Assembly: GCF_013391085.1 (NCBI RefSeq)
Contig: NZ_CP058334.1
Location: 3,100,001 to 3,164,000 of the forward strand
From: Natronomonas halophila
Lineage (GTDB): Archaea; Halobacteriota; Halobacteria; Halobacteriales; Haloarculaceae
DNA: 64,000 nt
Direction of reading: 5' to 3'
The notes beneath the pieces are model-generated. The model did no database searches, was not told the origin of the DNA, and worked only from the letters and a program-made list of their open reading frames with translations. The position numbers were made by a program, and so were the translations under genes. Positions 42,902 to 44,425 of the stretch are shown here, piece by piece; position 1 is the first letter of the stretch, and each line of letters starts with the position of its first letter.

Positions 42902-43342
42902 TTATAACTCCGAGCGGGCGACATCCGCGATTTCCTGAACGTCGATTCCCTGCCGGTGTGCGTAGAGGACCGCCGCGGCCTCGATGGTGACCGCCATGTC
43001 CGACTGGAGGGTGTTGACGGCCGCGACGGCCTCCTGTTTGTCGTGGCCGGCATCGACCAGCGCGCCGAGGACCCGCTCGAAGGTCGACCGTTCCTGCAGG
43101 ATTGATTCGTCGGGGACGAAATCCTCGGGCACGTCGACATCGCTCGGGTCGAACTGGGCGACCAGTTGGCCCTCGGCCCGGTCGACCATCCCCTCGCTGG
43201 CGGCGACGTCGACCAGTCGCTTCGCCTGGTCCGGCGAGAACCAGTCGCGGTCCAGAGAGAGGGCGACGACGAAGGCGCTTTCCCCCATTTCGCGGCTCCC
43301 CTCCTGTCGGAAGGGGGCGGCGACGGCCGTCCGGAGGCTCAT
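42902..43342 (-). CDS. DUF2240-family protein
   Basis: The 146-residue protein starts MSLRTAVAAPFRQEGSREMG and contains ESAFVVALSLDRDWFSPDQA, KRLVDVAASEGMVDRAEGQL and DVDVPEDFVPDESILQERST. These match the archaeal DUF2240 family, whose N-terminal half looks like a winged helix and whose C-terminal half is helical. Function is unknown; nucleic-acid binding is a guess from the fold. An upstream in-frame start (43369) is less likely. It is the first gene of a unit with the 141-residue hypothetical gene. Confidence 0.8.
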   Translation of the reverse strand: MSLRTAVAAPFRQEGSREMGESAFVVALSLDRDWFSPDQAKRLVDVAASEGMVDRAEGQLVAQFDPSDVDVPEDFVPDESILQERSTFERVLGALVDAGHDKQEAVAAVNTLQSDMAVTIEAAAVLYAHRQGIDVQEIADVARSEL

Positions 43343-43395
43343 GATAAATCGCTGTCGTGGCGCGGCCAAATACCCGTCGGTCCGCTAGGTGTTTG

Positions 43396-43532
43396 TTTAT
43401 AAAGGAAGCTTGGCGACTGCTTGACCGCTAACGGTCGGAAAGCCCTCGGCCCGGTGGCGGTCGCTGAGGAGGATACCCTCGCTCTGCTCGGGTAGTGCCT
43501 CCTCAGCGACTCCCCACCGGCGCCACCGGGCC
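43396..43532 (+). ncRNA. candidate structured RNA with long three-part hairpin
   Basis: A TATA box (TTTATAAA, 43396-43403) is followed at the right distance by a small stem-loop (43423-43436) and a long hairpin. The hairpin has an outer GGCCCGGTGGCG (43448-43459) with CGCCACCGGGCC (43521-43532), a middle TCGCTGAGGAGG (43461-43472) with CCTCCTCAGCGA (43498-43509), and an inner TACCC/GGGTA (43474-43494): 29 base pairs in 85 nt. I found none of the conserved sequence hallmarks of RNase P or SRP RNA. Transcription is inferred only. Confidence 0.35.
43460..43510 (+). repeat. hairpin element, copy A
   Basis: A 51-nt hairpin starting GTCGCTGAGGAGG and ending CCTCCTCAGCGAC, with loop ATACCCTCGCTCTGCTCGGG then TAGTG. 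It is the partner of copy B at 43870-43921 in opposite orientation: loops are nearly identical, stems differ but remain paired. Confidence 0.6.
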
Positions 43533-43869
43533 TCGCCCTTTCAGTCCACCAGGGACCACACGACGCCTGCCCTTCCCCGGGTCGCGAGGGCCGCCACGGG
43601 CGGCCACTCGCTCCCGGCCAATTGGTTTTTATAAATGGCGCACGCTGGCCGACCGCCGCGAACACCCCGTGAGCGGCGGTCGGACGAAACCGTGCGAGGG
43701 ACGACTGACCGAACGAAGTGAGGGAGAGCGAGGGTCGGAGCGAAGCGAGACCCTCGGATGCCGAACGGCGACCGGAGGGAGCCGTGAGGGAGGGAGTCGG
43801 TTGGGGAGGTTCGTGGTGCGGTGCTGTCCTGGCGGACTCGAAGGGCGAAGCCGGGTGGCGTTTATTTTA

Positions 43870-43921
43870 GTCGCCTCAGCGGGCACTATCCGAGCGAAGC
43901 GAGGGTATCCCGCTGAGCGAC
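43870..43921 (-). repeat. hairpin element, copy B
   Basis: Read on the minus strand it starts GTCGCTCAGCGGG and ends CCCGCTGAGGCGAC, with the loop ATACCCTCGCTTCGCTCGGA then TAGTG. Stem positions changed relative to copy A (GAGGAGG/CCTCCTC becomes CAGCGGG/CCCGCTG) keep pairing. One unpaired base interrupts the stem. Confidence 0.6.
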
Positions 43922-44053
43922 CGCCAGCCGGCTGAGGGCTTCGGAGGTGTTGCAGTCGAGAGAGACACCTAGCCAACATCGACTGAAACCTACGTTTCAT
44001 CCATCCACTCCAACCCGAGGCATTGAAGTACGCGCCCGGGATAGCTAACGCAT

Positions 44054-44425
44054 ATGAACAGTCACGGACGGTCCGAGAAGAAACGGACTGGCGGTCGACG
44101 ACGCAACGTACGCAAAAAGCGCAAGCACGAACTCGGCAACGAGCCGACCGAGACCCGCGTCGGCGAGGACAAACTGAAAGTCGTCGATTCCCACGGCAAC
44201 ACGACGAAGGTCCGTGCGGTCGCCCGCGCAGTCGCCAGCGTCGCCACCGACGACGGCGTCGTCAGCGCCGACATCGAGGACGTCGTCGAGAACGCCTCGA
44301 ACCCCAACTACGTCCGACGGAACATCATCACGAAGGGCGCCATCGTCGAAACGACCGAAGGCCGCGCCCGCGTTACCTCCCGCCCCGGTCAAGACGGACA
44401 GGTCAACGCGGTTCTCGTCGAGTAA
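44054..44425 (+). CDS. rps8e: 30S ribosomal protein S8e
   Basis: Component of the small ribosomal subunit. The 123-residue protein has the S8e/NSA2 features GRSEKKRTGGRRRNVRKKRK at the basic N-terminus, HGNTTKVRAVARAVASVATD, and ASNPNYVRRNIITKGAIVET followed by GRARVTSRPGQDG. It is strongly C-biased in codon use, as expected for a ribosomal protein. A T5 run at 44435-44439 shortly after the stop is a probable terminator. It lies alone, right of the hairpin-rich region, and not in a ribosomal operon. Confidence 0.97.
   Translation: MNSHGRSEKKRTGGRRRNVRKKRKHELGNEPTETRVGEDKLKVVDSHGNTTKVRAVARAVASVATDDGVVSADIEDVVENASNPNYVRRNIITKGAIVETTEGRARVTSRPGQDGQVNAVLVE

Follow-up and report, generated by a model that had tools for sequence, protein, structure and literature searches.

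Two facing hairpins in a gene-free interval of the Natronomonas halophila genome raise the question of what kind of element they belong to. An initial annotation of the 64,000-nucleotide stretch analysed here (the window) proposed a family of small structured RNAs, the ends of a small non-autonomous cassette, or a protein-binding hairpin repeat. Hairpins A (plus strand; GTCGCTGAGGAGGATACCC..GGGTAGTGCCTCCTCAGCGAC) and B (minus strand; GTCGCTCAGCGGGATACCC..GGATAGTGCCCGCTGAGGCGAC) were both found where that annotation had placed them, and each proved to be the distal part of a larger module of about 106 nt with three stacked helices. They belong to the two ends of a single element copy of about 580 bp, which runs from 43396 to about 43975 (Table 1). 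Neither inspection of the ORFs nor a coding-score gene caller revealed a defensible ORF between A and B, in agreement with the first reading of the interval. A loosely similar stretch that had been listed at 2962-2981 is unrelated, as neither blastn nor the covariance model matches there.

Table 1. Parts of the element copy in the window and its flanking genes.
Feature	Positions	Strand	Basis
Flanking gene, DUF2240 (PF09999), outside the element	42902-43342	-	Gene caller, Pfam
Left terminal inverted-repeat motif TTTATAA-NNN-GAGCTTGGCGAC, here TTTATAAAGGAAGCTTGGCGAC	43396-43417	+	Own-genome pattern search; 20-copy alignment
Left hairpin module, includes copy A	43437-43542	+	Fold, covariation, covariance model
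Conserved tail AGTCCACCAGG, 3' of left module	43543-43553	+	Copy alignment
Centre hairpin 1: CCTGCCCTTCCCCGGGTCG - variable hairpin - CTCCCGGCC	43566-43619		Flanks nearly invariant among full-length copies
Central TATA-like TTTTATAAATGG, junction of left and right halves	43627-43638		Sequence, copy alignment
Centre hairpin 2: CCGACCGCCGC / GCGGCGGTCGG	43649-43683		Sequence, copy alignment
Right centre: CGAGGGACGAC ... GGGAGTCGGTTGGGGAGG	43695-43809		Copy alignment
Conserved tail of right module (CCTGGCGGACT on plus strand)	43828-43838	-	Copy alignment
Right hairpin module, inverted, includes copy B	43839-43944	-	Fold, covariation, covariance model
Right leader and end	43945-43975	-	TTTATAA motif not recognisable in window copy
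Flanking gene, ribosomal protein S8e (PF01201), outside the element	44054-44425	+	Gene caller, Pfam

Each module leads from a basal stem (P1) through a 5 x 5 internal loop (CCCTC/TCGCC), a second stem (P2), a bulge on the 3' side, a third stem (P3) and an A/G-N-G loop to an apical hairpin. P1 is either GAAAG/CTTTC, as in the left module of the window, or CGAAG/CTTCG; P3 is the covarying stem described initially, and the apical hairpin is exchangeable. Alignment of 24 modules from the same genome gave 35 base pairs, 19 of which have undergone double changes, and in 105 distinct modules from many genera this number rises to 32 of 35, with 96.3% of pair cells paired. When the partners were slid out of register in these 105 modules, paired cells fell to 37-45%, and the covariation score, 0.416 in register, did not exceed 0.055. 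The pairing-preserving changes first noted between two copies thus extend far beyond them, and copy number together with covariation against these controls rules out chance palindromy. While the stems covary, the internal loop CCCTC/TCGCC is nearly invariant. Co-evolution of the left and right modules within one element left no sign in five within-element pairs (identity 0.707 within and 0.717 between elements), so the element halves seem to fold locally. Five loci (L013, L015, L016, L024 and L025) each hold one module of a second type, which keeps P1 and the CCCTC/TCGCC loop and has an unrelated distal arm.

Use of the element as a query against its own Natronomonas genome revealed about 20 copies, all of them intergenic, usually with gaps of 10-140 bp to the neighbouring genes, and none of the 20 with a convincing ORF. 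The covariance-model search suggested by the initial annotation, trained on the 24 own-genome modules, returned about 33 modules in that genome, of which only the two known ones lie within the window. Its matches are patchily distributed over 21 of 60 relatives and, more widely, 71 of 292 haloarchaeal genomes (31 of 77 genera). Facing pairs are common: 14 of 18 modules in the host genome and 19 of 21 in Halomicrobium stand in inverted doublets, and doublets also occur in HArc-gm2, where centre hairpin 1 is found as well. An exact-pattern scan of GTDB contigs gave at least 120 stretches; among the matches listed, all are haloarchaeal, and the genera are Halosimplex, Halorussus, Halonotius, Haloparvum, Natronomonas, Natronolimnohabitans, Halomicrobium, Halapricum and Salinarchaeum. 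The nearest neighbour of 28 of 30 modules comes from the same genome, a count in which sampling favours the host genome, and amplification appears to be lineage-specific. A viral source found no support in an exact-pattern search of IMG/VR or a blastn search of phages, neither of which gave a match; a few diverged modules are present on plasmids of Haloarcula and Halorussus. No recurrent gene was found beside the copies, and no description of the element was found in the open-licence literature.

That the element is mobile is well supported: it has many copies, all intergenic, and has entered new sites in the host lineage. For 10 copies, the flanking sequence was compared with up to seven sister or family genomes; in three cases the two neighbouring genes are also adjacent in sisters, and in each of the three the sister site is empty. 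The spacer at L010 measures about 680 bp here and 17-22 bp in four sisters, that at L011 about 717 bp compared with 143-204 bp in five sisters, and that at L020, between convergent stop codons, about 490 bp compared with about 9-18 bp in three sisters. G000 and G015, the latter a genome of the host's genus with a single module there, share one occupied site, which indicates that not every copy is recent and that some insertions are older. The same comparison at the window site, proposed at the outset for the rps8e-DUF2240 interval, could be carried out across the genus without yielding presence or absence. DUF2240 and rps8e (42902-44425) are adjacent here and non-adjacent in the other 19 genus genomes searched, with 25-37 kb between them in some genomes of the genus; the window copy therefore sits at a gene-order breakpoint, where its own empty site is unreadable.

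Analysis of the element ends revealed differences between lineages. Halomicrobium has near-identical copies that end in inverted GGTNGTGTTCAGATAAG motifs, which form terminal inverted repeats of about 17 bp. They measure 184-532 bp (mostly about 320-400 bp), nearly all contain module motifs, and 9 of the 17 copies fetched from the module-bearing set are flanked by exact 8-bp target duplications, with 7 of 8 positions matching in six more. The GGTNGTGTTCAGATAAG motif occurs 85 times in the Halomicrobium genome G153, often in facing pairs, compared with 0 occurrences of the reversed control. These repeats and duplications indicate that, in Halomicrobium at least, a cut-and-insert (DDE-type) transposase acts in trans. 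In the host genome, the ends carry a different inverted repeat, TTTATAANNNGAGCTTGGCGAC, which is present at both ends of some copies and at only the left end of the window copy; a search with the left-end pattern gave 21 sites, of which almost all mark the ends of element copies. The own-genome copies have eroded ends, and no target duplication was recognised beside them. In further genomes, tandem copies of the 5' arm, repeating about every 57 bp (range about 48-70), stand ahead of the module, and one core is thus combined with three kinds of ends. The roughly 20 copies, their paired inverted modules, the empty sister sites and the Halomicrobium repeats with 8-bp duplications together give good support to the early suggestion that the hairpins mark the ends of a small non-autonomous cassette.

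Several further parts vary among loci. Arrays of the 5' arm with periods of 57-63 bp lie directly upstream of a full module at L093 (1460-1720), L098 (1502-1718) and L069 (1530-1690). An optional hairpin insert follows CCACCAGG and has a second CCAGG at its end (L022, L024, L074, L150, L270, L271 and L290); its position is identical in four genomes, which represent at least three genera. A double hairpin of about 52 bp (GAGAGAGCGAAGCTCTCTCGTCATCACGAAAGGCGC..) is common to several genera, either inside elements or free (L017 1756 on the minus strand, L195, L216 and L264 886).

Searches of the host genome and of the fetched Halomicrobium regions turned up no autonomous partner whose ends match, and a few isolated own-genome sites of the end pattern have no transposase; the element is thus classed as MITE-like and is not assigned to any named IS. 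One candidate mobiliser, an IS1595 transposase located close to a GTGTTCAGATACG site, was rejected because the ends of ISHsi1 differ. In Halomicrobium katesii, the IS5-family transposase gene that directly adjoins a module (L270 60-985) appears to be a nested insertion.

The fold could be conserved in RNA or in DNA. An RNA selected on one strand is expected to tolerate G-U pairs, and not A-C. In the 105 modules, G-U accounts for just 0.8% of pairs (host genome, 0.1%). The corresponding figure for RNase P RNA from this genus is 10.4%, a control derived from 17 sequences whose de novo consensus is itself weak; one-sided and double changes number 14 and 508 in the modules and 56 and 42 in RNase P RNA. 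A-C cells (50) are commoner in the modules than G-U cells (28). As G-U is not tolerated above A-C, the constraint looks strand-symmetric, which would reflect either DNA folding or a function required in both strands, and we consider it moderately supported that the constraint acts at the DNA level. The near-absence of G-U and the excess of A-C over it also make it improbable that the modules are structured small-RNA genes, transcribed inward from a TTTATAA box as convergent pairs and spread by duplication. Such genes would account for the TTTATAA that lies about 40 nt before P1 in most own-genome copies, and the nearly invariant loop nucleotides and consistent fold would suit them; in other genera, however, the box is missing and transposon ends or arrays stand in its place, and no Rfam family scored above its gathering threshold.

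A need on both strands could also arise if the hairpins were bidirectional transcription terminators or insulators, required in the RNA of both strands at gene borders and spread as an element. All copies sit snugly between genes, a both-strand need would account for the missing G-U, and an inverted pair could serve two directions. We nevertheless regard this function as unlikely, since convergent, divergent and tandem sites are used alike with no clear preference among the copies, termination does not require conserved internal loops, and a U-tract common to the hairpins is absent. Double changes without G-U intermediates are what neutral copying would leave, in which intra-strand template switching at quasi-palindromes keeps the arms complementary with no selection on the fold. 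Under such copying the unpaired loops ought to be lost, but they are nearly invariant, which disfavours purely neutral palindrome copying and favours recognition; moreover, one-sided changes separate both the near-identical Halomicrobium copies and the L089/L095 orthologues, and the neutral account is thus distinctly unlikely. Inverted pairs of conserved intergenic hairpins with DNA-type covariation are also reminiscent of REP, BIME and REPIN elements, which would rely on a Y1 (HUH) transposase of the TnpA-REP (RAYT) type and travel as single-stranded DNA. However, the modules here are much longer (106 nt), Y1_Tnp (PF01797) was not found in the element-rich genomes G012, G014 and G010 or in the near-complete single-contig G059, and a Y1/RAYT partner was rejected because Y1 presence does not track element presence. 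The terminal inverted repeats and target duplications of Halomicrobium are not products of Y1 transposition, which makes this route very improbable.

Known haloarchaeal elements offer parallels as well. MITEs such as MITEHsal2 of Halobacterium salinarum (about 411 bp) and the HqIRS MITEs of Haloquadratum walsbyi (PMC10264941, PMC3119063) are likewise short, non-coding and multi-copy, and the Halomicrobium copies share with MITEs their terminal inverted repeats and 8-bp duplications. Compared by description, the present family differs in its covarying hairpin core, which is common to many genera behind unrelated ends, and its own-genome copies have no recognisable partner transposon or target duplication. 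SMR-A of Haloquadratum walsbyi inserts into PATE/IS605 palindromes without target duplication (PMC3119063); it is similar, again by description, in its size of about 110 bp, its inverted repeats and its mobility without an enzyme of its own. PATEs, which lack terminal repeats and target duplications and derive from IS605-type ends (PMC3119063), share subterminal palindromes with the element, as do IS200-IS605 ends in general, but differ from it in that the element bears DDE-type hallmarks in one genus.

The region from 43396 to about 43975 is probably one copy of a non-coding, non-autonomous, MITE-like doublet from a haloarchaea-wide family with a mosaic hairpin core. In Halomicrobium, a DDE-type transposase supplied in trans moves the copies. 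The modules stay complementary through double Watson-Crick changes, and the selected form would be a DNA cruciform or a single-strand hairpin at the replication fork; something required equally on both strands could take the place of folded DNA in this scheme. A putative protein may read the CCCTC/TCGCC and A/GNG loops and help to mobilise or tolerate the element, and the third initial proposal, that of a protein-binding hairpin repeat, would be plausible for the hairpin core. The outer ends would serve the transposase and be swapped between lineages, with the core retained. More tentatively, and with considerable doubt, the heritable unit of a class-wide haloarchaeal mobile DNA might be the folded-DNA hairpin core itself, which a dedicated host protein would read through its unpaired loops and which would pass from one kind of transposon end to other, unrelated ones. 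If the MITE-like reading is right, a mobile element that has apparently not been described before is widespread in haloarchaeal genomes, and the part it conserves is a structure in DNA; it would provide a natural test bed for the recognition of cruciforms or single-strand hairpins in archaea. The case also cautions that strong covariation by itself is no proof of RNA.

The copies may also affect neighbouring genes. The left end box of the window copy, TTTATAAA, lies 54-61 nt upstream of the start codon of DUF2240 and is possibly its TATA box. Because new copies insert among co-linear genes and may carry TATA boxes with them, they could rewire promoters, at DUF2240 and at an lldD-like/thrC pair, and it is possible that element copies supply promoters to their neighbours. 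The latter pair, to judge from the flanking sequence, would be the genes on either side of L010 (1258-1941), where the insertion parts two genes that lie 17-22 bp apart in sisters and TTTATAAA is now about 40 nt upstream of thrC.
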